From NCBI RefSeq assembly GCF_028473645.1, contig NZ_CP097269.1:1561001-1625000 (forward strand): a stretch of DNA of 64,000 nt. Reading direction: 5' to 3'. Origin of the DNA: Acidovorax sp. GBBC 1281 (GTDB lineage Bacteria > Pseudomonadota > Gammaproteobacteria > Burkholderiales > Burkholderiaceae_C). Numbering within the stretch: the stretch's first letter is position 1; every line of letters starts with the position of its first letter. The notes beneath the pieces are model-generated. The model was not told the DNA's origin. It saw only the letters and a program-made list of their open reading frames with translations, and ran no database searches. Shown here piece after piece: positions 8,299 through 32,830 of the stretch. The position numbers and the translations under genes were made by a program.

Positions 8299-8781
8299 TT
8301 ACTTGGCGGCCACCGTCTCGGGCATGGCCGAGGAGTGGTGGTGGGCGATCAGCCACTGGCCGTTCACGCGCTCGTACACGTAGGTGTAGCGGGCCTTCAC
8401 GGTCTTGCCGTCCTTGAGGGTGAACGTGTAGGTGCCCACGTCCTGCGCCACGTTGCAGCCGATGCGGATCGTGCGGGTGTCGATCTTGCCTTGCGGTTCG
8501 GCCTTGAGGAACTTCACGAAGTAGTCGCGGATTTCCAGCGGCGTCGTGCGGGGCTGGTTGGACACGGTGGGCAGCAGCACGCCGTCCTGCGCGTAGTTCG
8601 CGGTGACCTTGTCCGGGTCCAGCGTGCGCAGCGAAGCGTTCCAGCGGTCGAACAGCGCGGAGATCTGCTTTTCGTCGGCAGGGAAGCAGACCGGCTCACC
8701 CTGACCCTGCGCGAAGGCCGGGGCGGAGACGGAGAACAGAGCCAGGGCAGCTGCGGAGAGGGCGGTGTGAAGCGTCTTCAT
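8299..8781 (-). CDS. Exported SnoaL-like (SgcJ/EcaC family) protein
   Basis: A 160-residue protein with a Sec signal (KTLHTALSAAALALFSVSAPAFAQ) and one NTF2-like cone domain. The helix EKQISALFDRWNASLRTLDPDKVTANYAQDGVLLPT and the closing strands YTYVYERVNGQWLIAHHHSSAMPE are characteristic of the SgcJ/EcaC branch. The internal ATG at 8781 was chosen over the longer frame to 8832 because AAGGA sits 7-11 bases upstream and the signal peptide begins there. The ligand and reaction are unknown. It is transcribed toward the iron-reduction operon and is separated from it by a palindrome. Confidence 0.8.
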   Translation of the reverse strand: MKTLHTALSAAALALFSVSAPAFAQGQGEPVCFPADEKQISALFDRWNASLRTLDPDKVTANYAQDGVLLPTVSNQPRTTPLEIRDYFVKFLKAEPQGKIDTRTIRIGCNVAQDVGTYTFTLKDGKTVKARYTYVYERVNGQWLIAHHHSSAMPETVAAK

Positions 8782-8949
8782 GGGGTCCTTTGAGAAAAGT
8801 GGGTCAAGCGCCGGCCTTCGCCGGCACTGCATCGCTCACTGCGATACAGGACCTATTCTTCAAGGCGTGCATGAACACGGCCGTTGCAGCCCCATGAAGT
8901 GCAGATGACGCAAAAATGAACCGCGGATGAACAGGCTTTCGCCCCCGTG

Positions 8950-9633
8950 TCACTCGGCCGCGGCGTCCAGCCGGTACCCGAAGCCGCGCACCGTTTTCAG
9001 AAGCGAGATGGCATGGCCTTCGTCGATTTTTGCGCGCAGCCGGCGCACATAGACATCGACCACATTCGTCAGCGGGTCCTCGTTGGTGCCCCATACATTG
9101 GAGAGGATGCGCTCGCGGCTGTACACCCGGCCGGGCGCGCTCATGAGCAGCTCCAGGAAGGCCAGCTCTTTCGCCGTCAGCGCGATGGGCTGGCCGGCGC
9201 GGCTGGCCTGCATGCGCTCCAGGTCGAGCACCAGATCGGCCACCTGCAGCGTGCTGGCGCGCTGGCGCTGCTCGCGCCCCCGGCGCATCAGCGCCTCGAT
9301 GCGGGCCAGCAGCTCTTCGAACGCGAAGGGCTTGGTGAGGTAGTCGTCGGCGCCCAGCCGCAGGCCGTTGACCTTGTCCTCGGTGTTGCTGAGTGCGCTG
9401 AGCATCAGCACCGGCACGTGGCGGCCTTCGGAGCGCAGCGTCTGGCACAGCTCCAGGCCGCTCAGGCCGGGCAGCATGAGGTCGAGCAGCAGCAGCCCGG
9501 GATCGCCGGTGCGCGCCAGGGCCAGGCCGTCCGGGCCGTTGCGCGCCAGCTCCACGCTGTAGCCTTCGGCCTTGAGGCCGCGCAGCAGGAAGTCCGCCAC
9601 GCGCGGATCGTCTTCGACCACCAGGATGTTCAT
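8950..9633 (-). CDS. OmpR-type response regulator
   Basis: Two-component response regulator of 227 residues. The receiver domain has acidic residues EDD near residue 8, the phosphoacceptor Asp51 (LLLLDLMLPGLSG) and Lys101 (YLTKPF). The C-terminal winged helix shows LTAKELAFLELLMSAPGRVYSRE and VVDVYVRRLRAKID, as in OmpR/PhoB/CusR regulators. Its start overlaps the stop of the upstream histidine kinase gene by 4 bases (ATGA), so the two are co-translated. The target is unknown; a divergent or neighbouring efflux or metal gene that would hint at the stimulus is not present. Confidence 0.9.
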   Translation of the reverse strand: MNILVVEDDPRVADFLLRGLKAEGYSVELARNGPDGLALARTGDPGLLLLDLMLPGLSGLELCQTLRSEGRHVPVLMLSALSNTEDKVNGLRLGADDYLTKPFAFEELLARIEALMRRGREQRQRASTLQVADLVLDLERMQASRAGQPIALTAKELAFLELLMSAPGRVYSRERILSNVWGTNEDPLTNVVDVYVRRLRAKIDEGHAISLLKTVRGFGYRLDAAAE

Positions 9634-11267
9634 GCGTTTTCCTCGGGGGACAGGGTTTCGGGGTGGCTGGCCGAAGGCACGGTGATCTGGACCACCGTGC
9701 CCACGCCGGGCTGGCTGTCGATGTCGATGCGGCCGTGGTGCGCGTGCACGATGGACTGCGCGATCGACAGCCCGATGCCGGTGCCGTCCGCGCGGTGCGC
9801 CCGCGCGCGCTGGCCGCGCACGAAGCGCTGGAACACGGCGGGCAGTTCCTCGGCCTCGATGCCGATGCCTTCGTCGCGCACCAGCACCTGGGCTTCGCCA
9901 TCGGGGCCGGGCTGGCAGCCCACGCGCACCGTGCCGCCGCGCTGCGAATAGCGCACTGCGTTGTCCAGCACGATCATCAGCGCCTGGCGCAGCCGGTCGG
10001 CATCGGCGTTCACCACCAGCGGGCCGCCGGGGGCGGGCGGCAGGGGCTCCACGGTCACGCCGTGCAGCCCGCCCAGCGCGGCGGCCTGCTCCGCCGCATC
10101 GGTGACCAGGGCCTGCAGGTCCAGGCGGCGCGGGCGGATCACCAACTGGTCCGCCTCGGTCCTGGCGATCAGCAGCAGGTCGTGGATCACCTTGGTGAGC
10201 TGATCGACGCCGCCCACGATGCGCTCCAGCGTCTGGCGGTATTCCTGCGCCGGCCGGTCGCCGCCGCGCATCGCGATCTCGGCCTCGCCCCGGATGGCCG
10301 TGGCGGGCGTGCGCAGTTCGTGGCCCAGATCGGCGAACAGCTGGCGCCGGCGCTGGTCCACGCGCTGCAGGGTTTCGTGCGCCACGCTCAGTTCGTGCGT
10401 GCGGGCCTCCACCGCATCCTCCAGTTCGCGGCGCGCCGCATCGGCATGGGCGCGGTGCTGCTGCAGCTCCTCCGCCATGGCATTGAAGTGCTGGGCGACG
10501 CGGTCGAATTCGTCCTTCGAGCCGGTGGCCACGCGGTGGTCCAGCGCACCGGCCTGCAGGGCCCGCGTGCCGGCGAGCAGGCGGTCCAGCGGGCGCTGCA
10601 GGCGGCGGTTCAGGTGCAGCGCCAGCAGGGCCGCCACGGCGAGGGTGACGATCACCAGCGTGATCGCCTGCTGGCGCAGCACGTCCAGCCCGCGCTCGGT
10701 GGCGGCGCGCGCCACCGGAACGGCGCTGCGCTGGCGCTCGATGGCGCCGTTGATGAGTTCGCGCAGGTCCAGGCCGCGCGCCATGTCGAACGTGGCGTTC
10801 AGCTCTTCCCACACCGCAGGGAAGTCGGCCCCGGGCTCCAGCGGCTGCAACTGCGCCAGGCGGGCCTCCACGGCCCGGATGTTGTCTTCCAGCAGCTCCG
10901 TCATGCCCACGAGCTGCGGCACCTCCTGGGGCATGGACATGCCCTCGCGGTGGGCCAGTTCGTTCCACAGGGCCAGGTCGCGGCGGGCCAGTTCCGCCAG
11001 GGCGGCCGCGCCTTCGTGCATGCGTTCGAGCAGCCGCTCGCGCACATCGGGCACGGCATTGGCGTTCATCAGGCGCTGGGTGGCCCACACGCGCAGCCGC
11101 TGCTTGTTGGCCGACAGGTCCAGCAACTCCGAGAGGATGTCGCTGGCCAGCCGGCTGTGCTGCGTGTAGTCGTTGACGCGGTGGGTGCCCCAGTACACGA
11201 ACGCGGCCTGGATGCATACCAGGGCCACGAGGGCGGCGAATGCCAGGGAGAGTCTTGCGCGGTACAT
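9630..11267 (-). CDS. Sensor histidine kinase
   Basis: Membrane kinase of 545 residues. It has a first helix near residues 6-27, a periplasmic sensor of about 170 residues, a second helix near 201-219, a HAMP segment (LQRPLDRLLAGTRALQAGALDHRV) and a HisKA box with phosphoacceptor His316 in FADLGHELRTPATAIRGE. The HATPase follows with the N box (VLDNAVRYSQ), DEGIGIE and GTGIGLSIAQ. The periplasmic part is helical and rich in Glu, Leu and Arg, with no small-molecule fold that I recognise. It is the partner of the response regulator overlapping its 3' end. The stimulus is not evident from sequence. Confidence 0.9.
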   Translation of the reverse strand: MYRARLSLAFAALVALVCIQAAFVYWGTHRVNDYTQHSRLASDILSELLDLSANKQRLRVWATQRLMNANAVPDVRERLLERMHEGAAALAELARRDLALWNELAHREGMSMPQEVPQLVGMTELLEDNIRAVEARLAQLQPLEPGADFPAVWEELNATFDMARGLDLRELINGAIERQRSAVPVARAATERGLDVLRQQAITLVIVTLAVAALLALHLNRRLQRPLDRLLAGTRALQAGALDHRVATGSKDEFDRVAQHFNAMAEELQQHRAHADAARRELEDAVEARTHELSVAHETLQRVDQRRRQLFADLGHELRTPATAIRGEAEIAMRGGDRPAQEYRQTLERIVGGVDQLTKVIHDLLLIARTEADQLVIRPRRLDLQALVTDAAEQAAALGGLHGVTVEPLPPAPGGPLVVNADADRLRQALMIVLDNAVRYSQRGGTVRVGCQPGPDGEAQVLVRDEGIGIEAEELPAVFQRFVRGQRARAHRADGTGIGLSIAQSIVHAHHGRIDIDSQPGVGTVVQITVPSASHPETLSPEENA

Positions 11268-22264: not shown

Positions 22265-22290
22265 ATTATAGCGGCCCAGGGGAATTTCAA
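22265..22290 (-). promoter_or_regulatory. Promoter for rpoD at the end of dnaG
   Basis: On the minus strand a perfect -10 TATAAT (22265-22270) lies 14 bases after TTGAAA (22285-22290), or 16 bases after GCTTGA if the register shifts. The -35 overlaps the dnaG stop codon. It would give rpoD its own transcript with a leader of about 230 bases. Confidence 0.65.
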
Positions 22291-24299
22291 GCCGGCTTGA
22301 GCGAAATTCCGCGCAATGCCTTGAGCCGCTGCTCCAGGGCCTGGTACTGCGCCAGTGCCGCCGGGTCGCGCGCCGCCAGCAGGATGAGCTCGTTTTGCTG
22401 GCGCTTGAGCTCCTCGATGAGCATGCGGTCGAGCAGGTCGCGCAGCTCGGCCCGCAGTTCCTGCACGTCGCCCTCGGTATGGGCGTGCGAGCCAGTCATC
22501 ACACGCTCTGCCAGCCCCTCGCATTCGTGCCCGCGCAGGCTCTCGCGCAGCACGGCCCAGGCCAGCGGACCGTGCTCGTGCAACTGGCCTTCCAGCCAGG
22601 TGAACAGCGGCCCGTGCGGCGGCGCTTGGGCGCACAGCACCGCATGGTCCTCGTGGGCCAGGTCTTCCAGGAACTCCATGTGCGACAGCAGAAGCCGTAC
22701 CGCATGGTCCGTGCGGCTCGCTGCCGGGGTGCGGGGCAGGCGCGGCTGGATGGGGCGCTCGTCCTCCTTCTTCCAGCGGCCCTTGCCTTTCCAGTCGCCG
22801 TTGTTTTTGCGAAACGGTTTGGCGGCATAGCCCTGGCCGCCGCCGGGCGGCTCGCCGGCCGGGGCCCAGCCGGCGTCCTGCGCCGAGGCGCCCCAGGGTG
22901 GTTCGTCGGCGTAGGCGGGCGGGGGGGCGCCCCCGGGGGCCGCGCGGTGCGCGCCGCCGCCCTGGCGGCTCGCGTCCTGTGCCGCGGCCTGGTTCCACAG
23001 ATCGGACAGGTCGCGTGCGTCGAGCTGGCCCAGCTCGGCCAGTTCGGTCAGCAACTGCCGCTTGAGCGCGCCGTCGGGCAGGGCGGACCACAGCGGCCGC
23101 GCGTTGCTCACCATGTGGGCCCGGCCTTCGGCGGTGCCCAGGTCGCAGTTCTCGCGGGCCGCCTCCAAAAGGAAGCGGCTGAGCGGCAGCGCCTCGCCCA
23201 CATGCCGGGCGAAGGCCTCGGTGCCGTGTTCGCGGATGAAGCTGTCGGGGTCATGCTCGGCCGGCAGGAACAGGAACTTCACGCTGCGCGTGTCGGTGGC
23301 GTAGGGCAGGGCGCCGTCGAGCGCCTTGCGCGCTGCGCGCCGCCCGGCCGCGTCGCCGTCGAAGCTGAACACCACGGTTTCGGTGAAGCGGAAAAGCTTG
23401 TGCACGTGGTCGGGCGTGCAGGCCGTGCCCAGCGTGGCCACGGCGTTCGGGAAGCCGAGCTGCGCCAGTGCCACCACGTCCATGTAGCCTTCCGTGACCA
23501 GCACGTAGCCGTGTTCGCGGATGGCGGTGCGCGCCTCGAACAGGCCGTAGAGTTCGCGGCCCTTGTGGAACACGGGCGTTTCCGGCGAGTTGAGGTACTT
23601 GGGCTTGTCGTCGCCCAGCACGCGCCCGCCGAAGCCGATGCACTCGCCCTTCACGTTGCGGATCGGGAACATCACGCGGTCGCGGAAGCGGTCGTAGCGC
23701 TTGTCGTCCTCCTCGTTCACGATCACCAGGCCGCTCTCGGCCAGCAGGGGGCTGTCGTACTCGGGAAACACGCTGGCCAGATTGCGCCAGCCCTCGGGCG
23801 CGTAGCCCAGGCCATAGCGCTTGGCCACCGTGCCGGACACGCCGCGCCCCTTGAAGTAGCCCACCGCACGCGGCGAATCCTTGAGGTGCTTGCGAAAGGA
23901 TTCGCCGGCCTTCTCGAGCACGTCCGTCAGCGTGGCCTGCTTTTGCCGCTGGGCGGCGGCGCGCTCGCGCTCCTGGGGAGAGACGTCGTCCTGCGGCACC
24001 TGCAGGCCCACCTGCTGGGCCAGGTCCTGCACGGCCTCCACGAAGCCCATGCCGGCGTGCTCCATGAGGAAACTGATGGCATTGCCGTTCTTGCCGCAGC
24101 CGAAGCAGTGGTAGAACTGCTTGGAGGGGCTGACGCTGAACGAGGGCGATTTTTCCCCGTGGAAGGGGCACAGCCCCATGAAGTTGGCGCCGCCCTTCTT
24201 GAGTTGCACGTAGCGGCCGACGATGTCGACCACATCGACGCGGGCGAGCAATTCCTGGATGAACGACTGGGGGATGGACACCCGGCGATTGTCCCCCAA
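22287..24299 (-). CDS. dnaG: DNA primase DnaG
   Basis: Makes RNA primers at the replication fork and works with the replicative helicase. Its 670 residues include the zinc-binding domain (Cys44, His47, Cys65, Cys68 in CPFHGEKSPSFSV and FYHCFGCGKNGNAI), the RNA polymerase domain (IRNVKGECIGFGGRVLGDDKPKYLNSPET) and the TOPRIM acidic residues (VTEGYMDVVALAQ and FSFDGDAAGRRAA). After a Gly/Pro/Ala-rich linker (about residues 440-530) comes the C-terminal helicase-binding domain (LLLSHMEFLEDLAHEDHAVL). The ATG at 24299 gives the usual distance to the zinc domain. rpsU, its usual upstream neighbour, is missing; an AraC-type gene lies there instead. Confidence 0.96.
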   Translation of the reverse strand: MGDNRRVSIPQSFIQELLARVDVVDIVGRYVQLKKGGANFMGLCPFHGEKSPSFSVSPSKQFYHCFGCGKNGNAISFLMEHAGMGFVEAVQDLAQQVGLQVPQDDVSPQERERAAAQRQKQATLTDVLEKAGESFRKHLKDSPRAVGYFKGRGVSGTVAKRYGLGYAPEGWRNLASVFPEYDSPLLAESGLVIVNEEDDKRYDRFRDRVMFPIRNVKGECIGFGGRVLGDDKPKYLNSPETPVFHKGRELYGLFEARTAIREHGYVLVTEGYMDVVALAQLGFPNAVATLGTACTPDHVHKLFRFTETVVFSFDGDAAGRRAARKALDGALPYATDTRSVKFLFLPAEHDPDSFIREHGTEAFARHVGEALPLSRFLLEAARENCDLGTAEGRAHMVSNARPLWSALPDGALKRQLLTELAELGQLDARDLSDLWNQAAAQDASRQGGGAHRAAPGGAPPPAYADEPPWGASAQDAGWAPAGEPPGGGQGYAAKPFRKNNGDWKGKGRWKKEDERPIQPRLPRTPAASRTDHAVRLLLSHMEFLEDLAHEDHAVLCAQAPPHGPLFTWLEGQLHEHGPLAWAVLRESLRGHECEGLAERVMTGSHAHTEGDVQELRAELRDLLDRMLIEELKRQQNELILLAARDPAALAQYQALEQRLKALRGISLKPA

Positions 24300-25370: not shown

Positions 25371-25698
25371 GAATTCCCTTCGGCGGTCTGTCGCTTTCTG
25401 TGTGTTTCCACTCGAAATGTAGTGCACGCGCGACAGGTCGCGAAAAAAACCCTGCGCGCCGAACGGGGTCGAAATGGACCCCGCGTCTCACCCGTTGGGC
25501 CTGGCATGGCCGCCCGTCTCAATGGGCTGCATGGAGTGCTCTGGCCGCGGCGTGGGATGGAAATCCCCACTGGATCAGCGGGTTGAAACGGCCGGGGCGA
25601 AACGTCACGATGCACCGGTGGGCGGGAGGCCTGCCGCCCGATTCCGGGCGAAAAAACTGCGTCATCACCCCAATGGACCGGCCTGCCGGACACAACTT
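25371..25698. promoter_or_regulatory. Divergent control region with CGCGAC palindrome
   Basis: This 328-base gap separates the AraC gene from the DUF1566 gene. CGCGAC-AG-GTCGCG (25429-25442), followed by seven A, is a possible operator. The plus-strand frame of the next gene is open back to 25474 but that part lacks conserved sequence and has no start site with a ribosome-binding site. No other gene was recognised here. Confidence 0.4.
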
Positions 25699-28137
25699 AT
25701 GCACCCTGTGGATAGCCCCCTCGACCCCCTGCAGCATCTTGACCTCGTCCGAAGCTGCGGCGAAGGCGGACTCGGCCCTGCACCCCATGCGCTGTCGGTA
25801 CCGGTCCATGCCGAGCCGGGCGGCCCGGGCCAGGGCACGCTCACGGTCTTCGGCGCGGGCGGCCAGACGCTGGTGCAGACGGCCTTCGACGGCCATGCCA
25901 CGGTGCTGGTGCACGCGGCGCAGGGCGGCCTGCGCCTCGTCCTGGACCTGGGGGACGGCCTGCACCTGGCCGCCCGGCTCGAGGACTACCGGTCCGGCAC
26001 GGCGGTCGTGCTGTCGCCGATCTCCACGCTGGTGGATGCCTACCTCGCCACGCAGCCAGGGATGGCGCTGGCGCGGGCCCAGGCACGCGTGCTGGAGTCG
26101 CTGGGGCTGCCGCCCGACCTTCCCGTGGGGACTCTGGGCTTCAGCCTGGACCGCGACCGGTTCGATGCTGACCACTTCCACCAGGCCGCACGCGGCGCGG
26201 GCGGCACGCAGGCTCTGACCCGGCAGGTGGCGGACGGCATCGACGCCACGGTCTCCGTCCAGCGCTTCGGACGGAACGCGACCGGCCTGCTGGGCGCCGA
26301 CAAAAGCCCCGACGCCACCATCAAGGACCTGGTGGATGGCTTGTCCGGCAACTTCAAGGATTGGGCCGGCGGCAAGGTCAAAGGCTGGCTCATGCGGGTC
26401 AGCGGGATCAACAGCTTCCTGAACGAACTGGGGCTGGGTGAAGGAGAGGACACCACCGCCAAGCAACTGCAGGCGATCACGGCCGAGATCAAGCGGCTGA
26501 GCGAGGCGATCGACAAGGTGCCGCGGTCCACGGCCTACATCGCCCGCCTGACGGCGCTGGAGGTATTGAAGGCGTTCGTGCAGGACAAGACCGAGTTGCT
26601 GGCCAGCGCAGCGGGGGATGCGCCGCCGACGGCCGACCAGCTTCAGGAGCAATTCGTCAAGTCCGTGAATGAAAGCCTGGTGCTGACCCAGCTGCACGAC
26701 AACCAGGTGGGCTCCGGTGCCGATGCCAAGGGGCTGATCCGCCTGCTGCTGGACGACCACCCCAAGTTCTATTCGGGCCGCGCCGGAACGGCCTATGACG
26801 ACCTGCTGTTCAACGCCTTCAACCAGGCGCGCGCACTGCAGGCCCAGGCGCTGAACCTCAAGGTCGAGGCCGCCCATGCGGGCGATCCGCCGCAGCTGGA
26901 CAAGGCGGAGCGGCACCTGGACGAGTACCACATCCACCTCAAGCGCCAGCGGCTGATGTACCCCAACGGGCTCAAGCCCTTCGCCGACGGCAGCATCCTG
27001 GACCGCGACACCGGCCTGATGTGGAAACCGGAGATGTTCGAGTACGACGGTCTGGAAGGGCTGATGGCCGACCCGGCGAGCGCGGGCAATCCCTGGCGCC
27101 TGCCCAGCATCACCGAACTGCAGAGCCTGATACCGCCGAACGCCGTGCGCCATCGGCTGCCTTCCGGCGAACAGTCGGCTGCGACGCCTCAAGTCATGCG
27201 GTATTTCGGCTTCAAGCCGCAGTCGTACCAGCAGGACGGCACCACCCGCTACCGGCATTTCGCCGACCTGGGGCAGGCGGGGTCCAGGCCGTACAAGATC
27301 CTCGGCCCGGGCTACATCGTCACCCGCAATGCCTACAAGCGCCGCGATCGCCACTGGGGCCAGTCGGACTACGAACTGCGCACGCTGGTGATGAACCTGT
27401 ACAACGGCGACGAGGAAAACATCCGCATCAAATTCTGCCGTGGCGACGGCAAGTGCTATACCGAATACGGCTCCTCGCAGCCACCCGTGCCGTGGACCAT
27501 GCCGGTGCTGTACGTGCGCACGCCGCCCGTTCCCGTGGAGTTCAAGGTCGAGTTCTACGAAGGTTTCAAATCCACGGCCGACACGGCGCAGGGTTGGGCG
27601 CTGGTGCGCTACTCCGACAGCGGCGAGTGGAAGGACGTGACCCAGTATGCCATCTGGAGCGTCGAGGGCGATAACGCATCGGACGTGCACGTGTCCAACC
27701 ACGAAGGCACCAGCGGCCTGGTGCAACTGCGCAGCCAGGAGCGCACGCCACGTGCCTACACGATCAAGGCCGAACTGCCCTGGTACCTGTCGGACCAGCC
27801 CGGGCAATGGGGCCGGCTCGAAGGCAAGGCCATCCTCTACGGCAACCAGAGCGCGCCGGTGCCGGTGCTCAAGCGGCTGCTGCTGTCCCCTGCCACGAAG
27901 ATCACCAAGCAATACCCGTTTTCGTACGACCTCAGCATCCGGGGCGTCCTGAGTTCAGGGGCCGCCATCGACAAGGACATGGCCGTCTGGTCGTGCAACC
28001 CGAGCGATTCCGGCGTGCAGATCAGCCCCTCCGGCCGGGTGACGGTGTCCCAGGCCCCCACATCGAAAAAGCAGATCCAGATCAAGGCCACGATCGGCGG
28101 CGCCGAAGGGTTCGCCTACCTCGTGCTGCTGCCCTGA
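25699..28137 (+). CDS. Large DUF1566/Ig-like protein, unknown function
   Basis: An 812-residue protein whose job I do not recognise. Residues 38-110 look like an Ig/carboxypeptidase-regulatory sandwich followed by the SPISTLVDAYLA...LGLPPD helix pair seen in surface proteins. About 200-420 is helical. Near residue 430-480, DRDTGLMWKPEMFEYDGLEG and NPWRLPSITELQSLI form a DUF1566 (Lcl C-terminal) core. The last 80 residues (DKDMAVWSCNPSDSGVQISPSGRVTVSQ) resemble a BIG2 Ig-like domain. Such modules are usually extracytoplasmic, yet no signal peptide is seen from this ATG. There is no clear ribosome-binding site, so the start is uncertain. It lies 17 bases before the RCC1 gene and probably shares its transcript. 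Confidence 0.75.
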   Translation: MHPVDSPLDPLQHLDLVRSCGEGGLGPAPHALSVPVHAEPGGPGQGTLTVFGAGGQTLVQTAFDGHATVLVHAAQGGLRLVLDLGDGLHLAARLEDYRSGTAVVLSPISTLVDAYLATQPGMALARAQARVLESLGLPPDLPVGTLGFSLDRDRFDADHFHQAARGAGGTQALTRQVADGIDATVSVQRFGRNATGLLGADKSPDATIKDLVDGLSGNFKDWAGGKVKGWLMRVSGINSFLNELGLGEGEDTTAKQLQAITAEIKRLSEAIDKVPRSTAYIARLTALEVLKAFVQDKTELLASAAGDAPPTADQLQEQFVKSVNESLVLTQLHDNQVGSGADAKGLIRLLLDDHPKFYSGRAGTAYDDLLFNAFNQARALQAQALNLKVEAAHAGDPPQLDKAERHLDEYHIHLKRQRLMYPNGLKPFADGSILDRDTGLMWKPEMFEYDGLEGLMADPASAGNPWRLPSITELQSLIPPNAVRHRLPSGEQSAATPQVMRYFGFKPQSYQQDGTTRYRHFADLGQAGSRPYKILGPGYIVTRNAYKRRDRHWGQSDYELRTLVMNLYNGDEENIRIKFCRGDGKCYTEYGSSQPPVPWTMPVLYVRTPPVPVEFKVEFYEGFKSTADTAQGWALVRYSDSGEWKDVTQYAIWSVEGDNASDVHVSNHEGTSGLVQLRSQERTPRAYTIKAELPWYLSDQPGQWGRLEGKAILYGNQSAPVPVLKRLLLSPATKITKQYPFSYDLSIRGVLSSGAAIDKDMAVWSCNPSDSGVQISPSGRVTVSQAPTSKKQIQIKATIGGAEGFAYLVLLP

Positions 28138-28154
28138 CCCGCGAGGCGCATTCC

Positions 28155-29240
28155 ATGCCATTTCTCACCATCAGTGCCGGCCGCGACCGGTCCATCGCCC
28201 TCGCCGCAGACGGTGCGGCCTACGGCTGGGGCGGCGTCAAGCGGCTCGGCGCCCAGCTGCCACCCGGCTATCCAGGCGAGCTGTGCTCGTCCAGCCCCAC
28301 CGAGATCGGCCACAACCGCTACGCGCAGCCGCAGCCCCAGTGGCTGAACCCGGGCCTGCCGTTCACCGCGGTGCACGACGGGCATTCCCACACGCTGGCC
28401 GTGCGTGAGGGTGGCGCCGTGGTGGCCTGCCGGCCCGTGGTGTCGCCGGAGCACGGCGCCGACCGCGTGGGCGTGTCGGGCCTGCCGTCCCCGGTGGTCC
28501 AGGTGGCCCAGACCGAAGCCGCCGCATTCGCGCTGCAGGCCGACGGTACGGTGCGCTCCTGGGGCATGGCGGCCTACGGGCAACTGGGCCGCGTGACGGT
28601 GTCGCGCGAATCCGGCCCGCAGGCCATCGAAGGCCTGGGCGCCATCGCGCACCTGGCGTCCGGCCATGCGCACGTGCTGGCGCTGGACCGTGCCGGCCGC
28701 GTCTGGGCCTGGGGGGCCAACGCGGCCGGCCAGCTCGGCAACGGGGCACTGACTGAATCCGCCTTGCCGGTGCGAGTGGACCTGCCCGGGCGCATCGTGC
28801 AGGTGGCCGCGGGCGACACGCACAGCTTCGCGGTGGACGCGCAAGGCGGGCTGTGGGCCTGGGGCTCCAATCAGTACGGGCAATCGGGCGATGCGGCCGC
28901 GCGCTATTTCGCCCGGCCCGTGCGGGTGCGCACCGGCTTTGCCGTGGCGCAGGTGGATGCGGGCATGTTCTACACCGTGGCGCTGTCGCGCCAGGGCGAT
29001 GTGTTCGCGTGGGGCTGGAACGGCATGGGGCAGCTCGCGCGGGACGGCATGGCCTTTTCCGCCAAGCCGCTGCGCGTGCCGGCGCTGCGCGGCATGCTGC
29101 AACTGGCGGCCGGATCGGGCCACGTGCTGGCGCGCACCGGCACCGGGCTGCTCGCCTGGGGCGACAACCGCTCGTCCGCCTGCGGGGCGTTTCCGTCCAC
29201 CGCCGTGCAGGTCCGTCCCCATCCCATCGCATTCGCCTGA
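28155..29240 (+). CDS. RCC1-repeat beta-propeller protein
   Basis: A 361-residue protein built of RCC1 blades. Successive repeats read VRSWGMAAYGQLG, VWAWGANAAGQLGNG, LWAWGSNQYGQSGD, VFAWGWNGMGQLARDG and LLAWGDNRSSACG, each followed by a VxxLAAGxxHxLAL strand, with a first degenerate blade YGWGGVKRLGAQL. This fits a six- or seven-bladed propeller. No signal peptide is visible from the ATG at 28155. Bacterial RCC1 proteins are mostly surface or secreted proteins of unknown function. Its position between a DUF1566 gene and a multicopper oxidase gene, with gaps of 17 and 9 bases, implies joint expression and perhaps a complex. Confidence 0.86.
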   Translation: MPFLTISAGRDRSIALAADGAAYGWGGVKRLGAQLPPGYPGELCSSSPTEIGHNRYAQPQPQWLNPGLPFTAVHDGHSHTLAVREGGAVVACRPVVSPEHGADRVGVSGLPSPVVQVAQTEAAAFALQADGTVRSWGMAAYGQLGRVTVSRESGPQAIEGLGAIAHLASGHAHVLALDRAGRVWAWGANAAGQLGNGALTESALPVRVDLPGRIVQVAAGDTHSFAVDAQGGLWAWGSNQYGQSGDAAARYFARPVRVRTGFAVAQVDAGMFYTVALSRQGDVFAWGWNGMGQLARDGMAFSAKPLRVPALRGMLQLAAGSGHVLARTGTGLLAWGDNRSSACGAFPSTAVQVRPHPIAFA

Positions 29241-29249
29241 AGGCCCGCC

Positions 29250-30950
29250 ATGACCGATTCTTTCTCGACCCCGGAGCCGACGCGCCGCGCCAGCCTGCAG
29301 TGGATGTTCGGGCTCTCCCTGGGCACGGTGGTTGCCCCGCTGGCCGGCTGCGGCGGCAGCGCCTCCGGCGCCACGGCGGACACGCTGCCCGAGCCCGCCG
29401 CGCTGACGTCGTCCGGCGGCCAGCTCAGCCTGGACCTGTTCGCCCGCTACGGTGCGCAGCCGCTGCGCATCGCGGGATCGCAGCCGCCGGCCTATCCGGG
29501 CGTGGCCCGCACGGTGCAGACCGCGCTGCGCAGCTTCAACGGCCAGTACATGGCGCCCACGCTGCACCTGCAGCCCGGCGACACGCTGCGCATCCGGCTG
29601 GTCAACGAACTGCCGGCCAACGTGAAGGGCCAGTCCTCGCTGGACTACCTCAACCACCAGAACAGCACCAACCTGCATTTCCACGGCCTGCACGTCGATC
29701 CGCGGGAGATCCGCCCCGGCGTGTTCGGCGACTACGTGGTGGACATGGCCGAGGCCGGCGTGCTGCCGGGGGCCAGCCGCCAGCACGAGGTGGCCATCCC
29801 GGCCGACCACACCAACGGCATCTACTGGTACCACCCCCATCTGCACGGGTCGTCCAATGTGCAGGTCTCCAGCGGCATGTTCGGCGCCATCCTCATCCAC
29901 GACCCCAAGGACACCTTCATCGACACGCCGGACATCCGCGAGCGCGCGATCCACGTGCACAAGGTCAACCTGACCGGCGACGGCAAGACGGAATCGTTCT
30001 ACGACTCCATCCGTACCGCGTCGTCGGGCTTTCTTCTCAATGGTGCCTACCAGCCCACCATCGTCATGCGGCCGGGCGAGGTGCAGCAGTGGCACTTCAT
30101 CAACACGGCCTCGTTCTACCCGTTCAACCCCGTGCTGGACGGCCACACGCTCTGGGCGTATGCCAAGGACGGCAACGTGTTCAACCGCCGCTTCAAGCCC
30201 ATCAACGCGGCCACCTCGGACCGGTTCGACAACGCCCATTGGCCCGGCAACGCGCTGTACCCCGGCAACCGCCATTCGATCGTGGTGAAGGCCAGCGACG
30301 TGCCCGGCACGTATTACCTGCGTTCGGTCAAGGCGCCGTCGAGCGAGGCGCAGGACGAGATCGTCGCGCGCATCGTGGTGGAGGGCACGCCGCTGTCCAC
30401 CCCGCTGCCCCAGCCAGCGCGCCTGCCGCGCTATGCCGAGCACCTGCCCATCACCGATGAGGAACTGGCGGCCCATGGCGGCAAGCAGCGCAGCCTGGTG
30501 CTGGCCGTGCTGCCCAAGACGAGCGAGCGCCTGGCCCAGCCCATCCCGGTGGGGGAGGGCTGGTTCATCCCGCTGTCCGACGGCGTGGATGGCTTCACCG
30601 ACACCGTGTTCTCGTCCGGCGATGCCTCGCCGCAGGCCCGGCTGTCGCCGTTCCAGTCGTCGCTCACGGCCACGCAGACGGTGGCGTTGGGCGCGGTGGA
30701 GGAGTGGACCATCCAGAACCTCAACCGCTACCCGCACCCGTTCCACATCCACGTCAACGACAGCTATGTGGTGCGGGTCAACGGCGAGCCGGTCGATCCC
30801 TACTGGGCCGACACGCTCCCGGTGCCGCCGATGGGCAGCATCACCTTTCGCATGCGGTTCACCGACTTCCACGGCCAGTTCGTGTGGCACTGCCATGCGC
30901 TCGACCACGAAGACCTGGGAATGATGCAACTGGTGCACGTGGTCGCCTGA
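29250..30950 (+). CDS. Multicopper oxidase, exported (Tat/lipoprotein-type leader)
   Basis: Three-domain laccase-like oxidase of 566 residues that couples one-electron oxidations to oxygen reduction. All four copper motifs are present: NLHFHGLH (143-148), YWYHPHLHG (192-200), HPFHIH (496-501) and HCHALDHEDLGMM (547-559, the type 1 Cys, His and Met axial ligand). The leader has TRRASLQWMFGLSLGTVVAP followed by LAGC (Cys34), so it may be a Tat-exported lipoprotein. GGAGGAG-type leaders are absent, but the start is only 9 bases after the RCC1 stop. The substrate (metal, phenol or bilirubin-like) cannot be told. Nothing nearby encodes CopB/CopC-type resistance proteins. Confidence 0.92.
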   Translation: MTDSFSTPEPTRRASLQWMFGLSLGTVVAPLAGCGGSASGATADTLPEPAALTSSGGQLSLDLFARYGAQPLRIAGSQPPAYPGVARTVQTALRSFNGQYMAPTLHLQPGDTLRIRLVNELPANVKGQSSLDYLNHQNSTNLHFHGLHVDPREIRPGVFGDYVVDMAEAGVLPGASRQHEVAIPADHTNGIYWYHPHLHGSSNVQVSSGMFGAILIHDPKDTFIDTPDIRERAIHVHKVNLTGDGKTESFYDSIRTASSGFLLNGAYQPTIVMRPGEVQQWHFINTASFYPFNPVLDGHTLWAYAKDGNVFNRRFKPINAATSDRFDNAHWPGNALYPGNRHSIVVKASDVPGTYYLRSVKAPSSEAQDEIVARIVVEGTPLSTPLPQPARLPRYAEHLPITDEELAAHGGKQRSLVLAVLPKTSERLAQPIPVGEGWFIPLSDGVDGFTDTVFSSGDASPQARLSPFQSSLTATQTVALGAVEEWTIQNLNRYPHPFHIHVNDSYVVRVNGEPVDPYWADTLPVPPMGSITFRMRFTDFHGQFVWHCHALDHEDLGMMQLVHVVA

Positions 30951-31020: not shown

Positions 31021-31047
31021 GGGGCCCGGTGCAGTGCATCGGGCCCC
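31021..31047 (+). terminator. GC-rich hairpin after the multicopper oxidase gene
   Basis: GGGGCCCG (31021-31028) pairs with CGGGCCCC (31040-31047), and the inner GTGCA/TGCAT can extend the stem. It lies 70 bases after the oxidase stop. There is no T-run, so it may act as an mRNA end-protecting or Rho-assisted structure. Confidence 0.5.
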
Positions 31048-31186: not shown

Positions 31187-31960
31187 ATGAAGTTGCCATC
31201 CTCACCCACTTCCGCCTGCACCGCCTGCCGCGATGGCCAGGCGCTGGATTTCGAATTCACGATGGCGTTCCAGCCCATCGTCGATCTGCGCGACCGCAGC
31301 GTGTATGCCTACGAAGCTCTGGTGCGCGGACTGGACGGCAGCTCGGCCTACAGCATCCTGGCCAAGGTGACGCAAGAGAACCTGTACTCCTTCGACCAGG
31401 CGTGCCGCGTGAAAGCGGTGGAACTGGCCGCGCAACTGGGCATGCCCTGCCGGCTGAGCATCAATTTCCTACCCAACGCCGTGTACCAGCCCGAGGCGTG
31501 CATCCGCGTCACGCTGCAGGCCGCGCAGCGCTGCGGGTTCCCCACCGAGCGCATCATTTTCGAGATCGCCGAGCGCGAGAATTCGCTGGACAAGGCGCAC
31601 TTGCAAGGCATCCTGCACGCCTATCGCCGCCACGGTTTTCTGAGTGCCATCGACGACTTCGGTGCGGGCTACGCGGGCCTGAATCTGCTGGCCGACTTCC
31701 AGCCCGATCTACTCAAGATCGACATCGACCTGGTGCGCGGCATCGATGGGCACCCGGTGCGGCAGGCCATCGTGCGCAGCATCGTGGGCCTGTGCAAAGA
31801 CCTGGGCGTGCAGGCGCTGGCCGAAGGCGTTGAGACCAACGCCGAATTGCACACCCTGCGCGGCCTCGGCATCCATCTGTTTCAGGGCTACCTCTTTGCA
31901 AAGCCCGCGCTGCAAGCCTTGCCGCCGGTGAACTGGCCGCAAGAAGCGGCGGTTGGCTGA
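31187..31960 (+). CDS. Stand-alone EAL-domain c-di-GMP phosphodiesterase
   Basis: A 257-residue protein that is essentially one EAL domain after a short Cys-containing N-terminus (CTACRDG). Catalytic marks are intact: EALVRG (43-48), the Asn of LSINFLPNAVY, the Glu of FEIAERE, DDFGAGYAGLNLL, the Lys of LLKIDIDLV, and EGVETNAEL with QGYLF. It should therefore hydrolyse c-di-GMP to pGpG. No sensor, GGDEF or membrane segment is attached, so partners or expression must set its activity. The ATG at 31187 starts just before the domain; the frame is open back to 31085 without conservation. Confidence 0.9.
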   Translation: MKLPSSPTSACTACRDGQALDFEFTMAFQPIVDLRDRSVYAYEALVRGLDGSSAYSILAKVTQENLYSFDQACRVKAVELAAQLGMPCRLSINFLPNAVYQPEACIRVTLQAAQRCGFPTERIIFEIAERENSLDKAHLQGILHAYRRHGFLSAIDDFGAGYAGLNLLADFQPDLLKIDIDLVRGIDGHPVRQAIVRSIVGLCKDLGVQALAEGVETNAELHTLRGLGIHLFQGYLFAKPALQALPPVNWPQEAAVG

Positions 31961-32013: not shown

Positions 32014-32755
32014 ATGCCCCTCGATCCTGCCGTCCTCCAGGCCTTTGCACCCACCGGGGTGTTGCGGGCGTCCATCAACCTGGGCAATCCCATCCTGGCC
32101 AAGGCCGGTGCGCCGGGGGCGGACCCGTCCGGTGTGTCCGTCGATCTGGCGCGGGCGCTGGCCGAGCGCCTGGGCGTGCCCATCGCCTTCGCCGTGTTCG
32201 ATGCGGCCGGCCAATCGGTCGAAGCCGTCACGCAGGAGCAGGCCGACGTCGGCTTTTTCGCGGTGGACCCCCTGCGGGGTGCCGGCATCGCGTTCACCGC
32301 GCCGTACGTGCTCATCGAAGGCTGCTACCTGGTGCGTGACGATTCGCCGCTGCGCGACAACGAGGCCGTGGACCGGCCCGGGCACCGGGTGGTGGTCGGC
32401 AAGGGCAGCGCCTACGATCTCTACCTGAGCCGCGAGATGAAGGCCGCCACCCTGGTGCGCGCCCCCACGTCGCCCGCCGTCGTGGAAACCTTCCTGGCCG
32501 AAGGCGCCGACGTGGCTGCGGGCGTCAAGCAGCAGTTGCAGGCCGATGCGCAGCGCCTGGGCGGCGGCCTGCGCCTGCTGCCGGGCCGCTTCATGGTCAT
32601 CCAGCAGGGGGCTGCCCAAGGGCCGGGGCGAGGCCGCGGCGGGTGTGCTGCATGCCTTCGTGGAGGAGGCCAAGGCCAGCGGCTTCGTGCAACAGGCGCT
32701 GGAGCGGCACGGCATCCAGGGCGCCTCGGTGGCGCCGGCCCAGGCACCGGCGTGA
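32014..32755 (+). pseudogene. Solute-binding protein (family 3) gene, frameshifted near 32610
   Basis: Amino-acid-type periplasmic binding protein fold: GVLRASINLGNPILA, SVDLARALAERLGVPIAFAVFDAAGQ, ADVGFFAVDPLRGAGIAFTAPYV and VVVGKGSAYDLYLSRE. At MVIQQ (about 32605) the frame breaks inside a GGGGG run (32607-32611). The expected C-terminus GLPKGRGEAAAGVLHAFVEEAKASGFVQQALERHG continues in the next frame to a stop at 32755, and the uninterrupted frame instead ends in an unrelated Gly/Arg-rich tail to 32799. No signal peptide is seen at the start. Either the gene is inactivated or this is a homopolymer sequencing error; most of both lobes precedes the break. Confidence 0.78.
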
Positions 32756-32767
32756 GGCGGCGATTCG

Positions 32768-32830
32768 CTTGCTATTGTTTTAATAGCGGAATGCCCTAGT
32801 GTCGATTGTGCCGGGGCCTGTTTTGATACC
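32768..32830 (+). repeat. Intergenic repeat, copy C
   Basis: A 63-base copy of the element at 16386. It has the best inverted repeat, GCTATT-5-AATAGC (32771-32787), then ATGCCCTAGT, GTGCCGGGGCC and TTTTGATACC. It lies 12 bases after the end of the frameshifted binding-protein gene. Confidence 0.6.

Follow-up and report, generated by a model that had tools for sequence, protein, structure and literature searches.

An AraC-linked accessory islet in Paracidovorax-type genomes carries an RCC1-multicopper oxidase pair and a separable DUF1566-like module

The window analyzed here, a stretch of 64,000 nucleotides, belongs to a Paracidovorax-type genome whose relatives include P. konjaci, P. anthurii, and Acidovorax sp. 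strains NCPPB 3576 and NCPPB 4044. Its open reading frames delineate a cluster of three forward-strand genes: a DUF1566/Lcl_C-like gene (hereafter DUF; ATG at 25699, end at 28137; 812 amino acids [aa]), an RCC1-type propeller gene (ATG at 28155, end at 29240; 361 aa), and a gene for a three-domain multicopper oxidase (MCO; ATG at 29250, end at 30950; 566 aa). The gaps between them are 17 and 9 bases, and an alternative in-frame ATG at 25474 would lengthen the DUF product to 887 aa. A divergent AraC-family regulator gene lies on the reverse strand (24336 to ~25370; HTH_18, 2.7e-15), separated from the DUF start by 328 bases (25371 to 25698). Gene order, gaps, and divergent regulator thus agree with the preliminary description of the locus. 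The left-hand flank holds the dnaG primase gene (22287 to 24299, reverse strand; recognized by its DnaG domains and found in 17/17 genomes of the genus), and the right-hand flank, outside the islet described below, holds an EAL-domain gene (31187 to 31960, forward strand; EAL, 6.7e-50). Other genes in the flanks encode a sigma-70 factor, SBP, cupin, gamma-glutamyltranspeptidase (GGT), and PhoD-like phosphatase proteins. The SBP-type gene after EAL (32014 to 32799) has homologues in L041 and L083 that match in two frames, and the window's reading near its 3′ end may be shifted. At the right end of the islet, alignment by eye of seven occupied right ends revealed a GC-rich inverted repeat (31021 to 31047, forward strand) that aligns in all seven occupied sites, imperfectly in P. 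anthurii. This repeat was not seen by eye in the aligned empty sites, and a terminator scan gave no match to it.

The AraC-family protein is FeaR-like: FeaR is its nearest NCBIfam model, although its score (94.1 bits) lies below the cut-off for membership (199). In the divergent region, a CGTCACGAT box is conserved across the alignment of occupied species, and the window carries two copies of GTCTCA 31 bases apart. These repeats, which were spotted by eye, form a pair at a spacing of 31 to 32 bases in 5/7 divergent regions of occupied sites; the shorter TCTCA pair is present at that spacing in 6/7, with one copy in G328. We infer that the GTCTCA repeats are a candidate operator. A scan for sigma-70-type promoters gave no match.

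Both the RCC1 propeller and the complete MCO of the preliminary description were borne out by family models. The RCC1 protein scored above the cut-offs of PF25390 (205.3 bits; cut-off, 150) and PF00415 (143.3 bits over four stretches; cut-off, 21.7). A hydrophobic leader was absent from all seven RCC1 proteins examined (7/7; the start of the L117 protein was chosen by us). When RCC1 and MCO were modeled as a fusion with AlphaFold (pTM, 0.40; mean pLDDT, 51.8), only residues ~110 to 340, the RCC1 core, were well predicted. Bacterial RCC1 proteins are best known as secreted or host-directed. The remaining RCC1 matches in the genus come from open frames 840 to 1201 aa long, and two further genus genomes encode RCC1 proteins of this other type only. 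Such longer-frame RCC1-repeat proteins were seen at L084:4648-8169, L085:7630-10839, and L086 ~8688-9635; that of P. anthurii combines an Ig-like domain with a C-terminal IPTL-CTERM motif and adjoins another AraC gene.

The MCO exceeded the cut-offs of Cu-oxidase (35.6 bits; cut-off, 21), Cu-oxidase_2 (78.6; 20.4), and Cu-oxidase_3 (63.5; 21). The copper motifs of MCOs are HxHG, HxH, HxxHxH, and HCHxxxHxxxxM; all four are intact in this protein (residues 143, 195, 496, and 547), and the axial Met is present. Its best solved relatives are laccase entry 6wcn (E = 1.1e-29) and the Thermus thermophilus multicopper oxidase 2xu9. The N terminus, TRRASLQWMFGLSLGTVVAPLAGC, forms a Tat-like leader with RR at positions 12 and 13 and the lipobox LAGC (Cys34). 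Among the MCO relatives, 89/120 of those listed start with Met; of these, a twin-Arg leader motif is found in 80/89, 73 of which have a lipobox-like Cys as well. Ottowia, Polaromonas, and Castellaniella encode relatives of the MCO at 61 to 76% identity. The earlier claim that an export leader is present on the oxidase only was upheld, since neither the RCC1 nor the DUF protein has one; all of these leader calls rest on motif and hydrophobicity, without a trained predictor.

We considered whether the MCO might be a copper-tolerance oxidase of the CueO/CopA type and its neighbors mere passengers. In favor of this reading are the MCO fold and weak matches to the curated NCBIfam models of CueO (84.4 bits) and CopA (60.9 bits), and in the accessible portion of one report, Acidovorax citrulli cueO (Aave_1810), a gene that may be either the window's MCO or another, is described as supporting copper tolerance (PMC11052375). 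However, both scores fall far below the cut-offs for membership (525 and 478.95 bits, respectively), residues 312 to 470 of the MCO contain no Met, no copper efflux family was detected among the flanking genes scanned, and a second MCO is encoded elsewhere in the same genome. We therefore regard a role in copper tolerance as quite improbable.

The DUF protein was more difficult to classify. Its score against PF07603 (Lcl_C) was 21.8 bits, below the gathering cut-off of 34.9, and is accordingly a weak match, although such a match (E ≤ 0.05) was found in 8/8 members of the alignment, the window's protein included, and 2/8 related proteins carry the DUF1566 name in their source annotation. Structure prediction of the 812-residue protein gave two C-terminal Ig folds (residues 610 to 812) in a model whose overall confidence was low, along with a plausible N-terminal Ig-like domain with helices and a helical middle; outside the Ig domains the model was poor. 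Of the earlier label "DUF1566/Ig-like," the Ig-like part is thus supported by the two folds in this low-confidence model, whereas DUF1566 stands as a match below cut-off. A search of 5.8 billion proteins yielded eight relatives, of which two are distant (37%) and come from a metagenome or an unnamed source; when the DUF alignment was used as a profile, the same eight proteins were returned as with the single query. By motif and hydrophobicity, the five close members lack a hydrophobic leader; three distant relatives score higher (1.6 to 2.0 near residue 25), but the form of a leader was absent by eye. In other genera, no full-length DUF gene was detected in 393 genomes drawn, G283, G331, and G369 (see below) among them, and the only match was one of 47 residues, in G356. 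Within the genus, P. anthurii encodes a second DUF paralogue (36 to 38% identical; L040:10001-12361), which lies near an ECF-type sigma factor gene and a large gene with a ketosynthase-like start, as judged by eye. Judged from its sequence, the DUF protein appears to be a fast-diverging orphan of surface type that is nearly confined to the genus in the searches made here.

Across 17 genomes of the genus, the block was detected in seven, in all of which (7/7) it occupies the same site in the order dnaG-AraC-cargo-EAL. Its contents were of three types: AraC with DUF (type A; P. konjaci, P. anthurii, and NCPPB 4044), AraC with all three genes (type AB; the window and NCPPB 3576 [L041], in identical gene order), and AraC with RCC1 and MCO (type B; G408 and G328). 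Accordingly, all three cargo genes are present in two genomes, DUF only in three, RCC1 and MCO only in two (one decaying), and none in 10; the totals are five genomes with DUF, four with a close MCO (93 to 100% identity), and four with a short RCC1 at the locus, one of them broken. Neither AraC nor cargo was matched in the 10 empty sites, for which 9.5- to 10-kb stretches beside dnaG were searched; EAL follows dnaG in 9/10 of these, and in G190 a cupin gene comes next and EAL was not seen. The AraC gene, present in 7/7 occupied sites (split over two frames in G328) and 0/10 empty ones, therefore comes and goes with the cargo and belongs to the block, as had been proposed. In G328 (L083), the AraC, RCC1, and GGT genes were each matched in pieces, those of AraC and RCC1 in different frames, which suggests that the locus is decaying or faultily assembled. 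Plasmids gave no DNA match to the block and a single distant MCO (33%). We conclude that the block constitutes an accessory islet, flanked by dnaG and the EAL gene.

Judged by gene content, DUF and RCC1-MCO are two separable modules, because either can be found alone: DUF in three genomes and the pair in two. This argues against the suggestion in the preliminary description of one dedicated pathway of three proteins, which we consider unlikely. Joint action of all three proteins in a single surface or redox system is likewise improbable on these counts, even though the genes stand in order in both the window and NCPPB 3576 and remnants (below) point to a formerly wider distribution of the full block. 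A search of gene neighborhoods, which the preliminary description had recommended, thus had a divided outcome: the three genes do adjoin in NCPPB 3576, but all of them occur together in only 2/17 genus genomes.

Remnants of the missing modules were detected at some of the occupied sites. Between the DUF stop and EAL in P. anthurii, we found a match to the last 30 nucleotides of MCO, stop codon included (26/30 versus the window, 24/30 versus NCPPB 3576, and 27/30 versus G408; 0/500 shuffles each). Conversely, the stretch of 30 bases where DUF would be expected to begin in G408 and G328 matched five DUF starts at 19 to 21/30 positions (0 to 4/500 shuffles, depending on the query) and read MHSIDSAFDP, versus MHPVDSPLDP. 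The frame of the G408 remnant terminates at a stop codon overlapping the start of RCC1, and a fusion of this remnant in frame to RCC1 was rejected on that ground. Neither an MCO nor a DUF remnant exceeded chance in the 10 empty sites. No MCO remnant above chance was found in P. konjaci and NCPPB 4044 (14 to 17/30), so that loss of the module there rests on the tree: dnaG separates the window, NCPPB 3576, G408, and G328 from P. anthurii, P. konjaci, and NCPPB 4044. The simplest reading of these sequences is a full ancestral block from which RCC1-MCO was lost in one clade and DUF in G408 and G328, and the full block is likelier to be the older state. Adjacency in NCPPB 3576, with remnants suggesting the same arrangement once in other species, means that the three genes are neighbors beyond the window. 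In two genomes the body of DUF has been lost and its upstream region left just before RCC1-MCO, which fits a single operon; the islet cargo most likely forms one.

The DUF gene has diverged further between sister species than its neighbors have. Synonymous divergence (dS) between the window and NCPPB 3576 was 0.49 for DUF, versus 0.25 for dnaG, 0.18 for AraC, 0.16 for RCC1, 0.10 for MCO, and 0.33 for EAL; between P. konjaci and NCPPB 4044 it was 0.48 for DUF, versus 0.17 for dnaG, 0.22 for AraC, and 0.15 for EAL. Identity falls over a stretch whose limits roughly coincide with those of the DUF gene and adjoining intergenic DNA. With dN/dS of 0.25 to 0.36 over ten pairs, the gene is still under constraint. 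A swap of the DUF gene between the two clades was considered and rejected (window with P. anthurii, p-AU = 0.0002): the DUF tree holds together the window with NCPPB 3576 and P. konjaci with NCPPB 4044 (100/100 each), and although support for the former grouping was low in the dnaG tree (63/60), the two trees agree, leaving exchange between the clades unsupported. The excess in dS may reflect alleles that are old, faster change, or import from close relatives outside the sample.

The RCC1-MCO pair recurs in other genera. Outside the genus, an MCO at E ≤ 1e-30 was found in four of 399 family genomes (G283, G331, G369, and G090); at the same threshold, searches of the genera of G331 and G369 gave 2/9 and 1/5 genomes, respectively, and draws from the order (1/399) and class (1/229) each returned only the window's own genome. 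RCC1 lies directly upstream of MCO in 4/4 evaluable loci, from three other genera (G283, G331, G369, and G1023), a count that covers MCOs at E ≤ 1e-30, some MCO at E ≤ 0.001 being present in 45/200 family genomes, and that leaves out G090, whose contig reaches only a few hundred bases beyond the MCO start. We take the pair to be real on the strength of this recurrence. Identities were 35 to 45% for RCC1 and 41 to 58% for MCO. G283 and G331 share a ten-gene order around the pair (2662 to 15193 in L117 and 2357 to 15061 in L118, two other genera): an FAD-SLDH-like small subunit, a GMC oxidoreductase, a PLP decarboxylase-like protein, a phytochelatin synthase-like protein, and RCC1, followed by MCO, a membrane-type protein, an unknown protein, a sodium:sulfate symporter-like protein, and a further unknown. 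In G1023 the phytochelatin synthase-like gene, RCC1, MCO, and the next genes follow the same order. The N terminus of the PLP decarboxylase-like protein in the ten-gene cluster resembles an export leader by eye.

Whole-genome searches of G283, G331, and G369, all of which have the pair, gave no DUF homologue, and no DUF gene was seen in the stretch around the pair in G1023; the pair in genomes without a DUF match counts further against a single three-protein system. Of the grouping as first interpreted, RCC1 and MCO are supported as a conserved pair, and a pathway of three is not supported, all three genes being together in 2/17 genus genomes. The same order in NCPPB 3576 and the recurrence of RCC1-MCO in other genera also place the grouping beyond chance. 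Patchy presence and the broken genes of G328 would fit a chance run of neighbors without common function, but RCC1 upstream of MCO in every evaluable locus of other genera, at the identities given above, and the low dN/dS of RCC1 and MCO (0.08 to 0.13) make such a run very improbable. In the literature, we found nothing joining RCC1 with a laccase in an operon or DUF1566 with RCC1. Judged by title, publications on RCC1 and multicopper oxidases in bacteria held nothing on the pair; among the matches listed for gene clusters of phytochelatin synthase with multicopper oxidase, none included RCC1 in the portions available, and the accessible parts of the literature on the PgcA non-heme domain held nothing on its fold.

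There is good support for an islet, linked to AraC, in which an RCC1-MCO pair stands beside a separable DUF module. For the way in which the parts might work together, we propose the following. AraC, acting at the conserved divergent region, would activate the operon. The MCO would take up copper and fold in the cytoplasm, leave in folded form through Tat, and be anchored as a lipoprotein, where it might oxidize a small substrate, phenolic or metal. The leaderless RCC1 propeller would bind the folded MCO, and the DUF module would be coregulated but dispensable for the RCC1-MCO module. The islet and this mechanism taken as a whole are, in our judgment, somewhat probable.

For RCC1 itself, several roles can be envisaged. 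The propeller may ride out with MCO as a Tat hitchhiker, which we put forward tentatively; by motif and hydrophobicity, only one partner carries a Tat leader, as such a pair would have it. Somewhat more doubtful is that it acts inside the cell as a maturation or proofreading partner of MCO. The latter role overlaps with a broader alternative in which RCC1 is cytoplasmic and unexported throughout, serving the Tat-exported MCO in maturation or proofreading or acting as a regulator. The absence of a leader from all seven RCC1 proteins fits this alternative, and many Tat substrates have dedicated cytoplasmic partners; to our knowledge, however, no propeller chaperone of this kind has been described, and we regard the alternative as possible but rather doubtful. 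RCC1 could also act without touching MCO. The most far-reaching proposal, which we offer as speculative, is that leaderless RCC1 beta-propellers are new dedicated partners of Tat-exported MCOs in Burkholderiales-type bacteria, which would bind the copper-loaded oxidase in its folded state and be carried out with it to form a two-subunit lipoprotein oxidase.

The conserved RCC1-MCO pair would give bacterial RCC1 proteins an enzyme-linked role. The islet also provides natural deletion variants, species with either module beside the same regulator, so that the modules can be distinguished by comparison. In addition, the fast-diverging DUF protein between conserved neighbors is a candidate variable interaction surface.

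The components of the islet resemble known systems in part. Like the three-domain bacterial laccases (Thermus thermophilus laccase, CotA, and CueO), the window's MCO has three cupredoxin domains, four copper motifs, and the axial Met; it differs from them in its Tat-type lipoprotein leader and neighboring RCC1 gene, in its Met-free residues 312 to 470, and in scoring far below the CueO and CopA cut-offs. The DUF protein shares with DUF1566/Lcl_C proteins the weak Lcl_C match of all eight members and, in the window's protein, an Ig-like C terminus, but it is below the Pfam cut-off, is leaderless, and has an N-terminal domain of its own. Bacterial RCC1-repeat proteins include long ones and host-directed effectors; the window's RCC1 repeats score well above cut-off, yet they form a short propeller, without a leader, beside an MCO gene. 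The pairing of one exported and one leaderless partner, which the preliminary description rightly observed, is less of a puzzle than it had seemed there, because Tat hitchhikers provide precedents. In the accessible part of one such account, the gamma and alpha subunits of FAD glucose dehydrogenase form a Tat hitchhiker pair, in which one partner has a Tat leader and its neighbor does not; there, the enzyme depends on a leader borne by its small subunit (PMC6719666). Here it is the enzyme, MCO, that has the leader, and the propeller is the putative rider.
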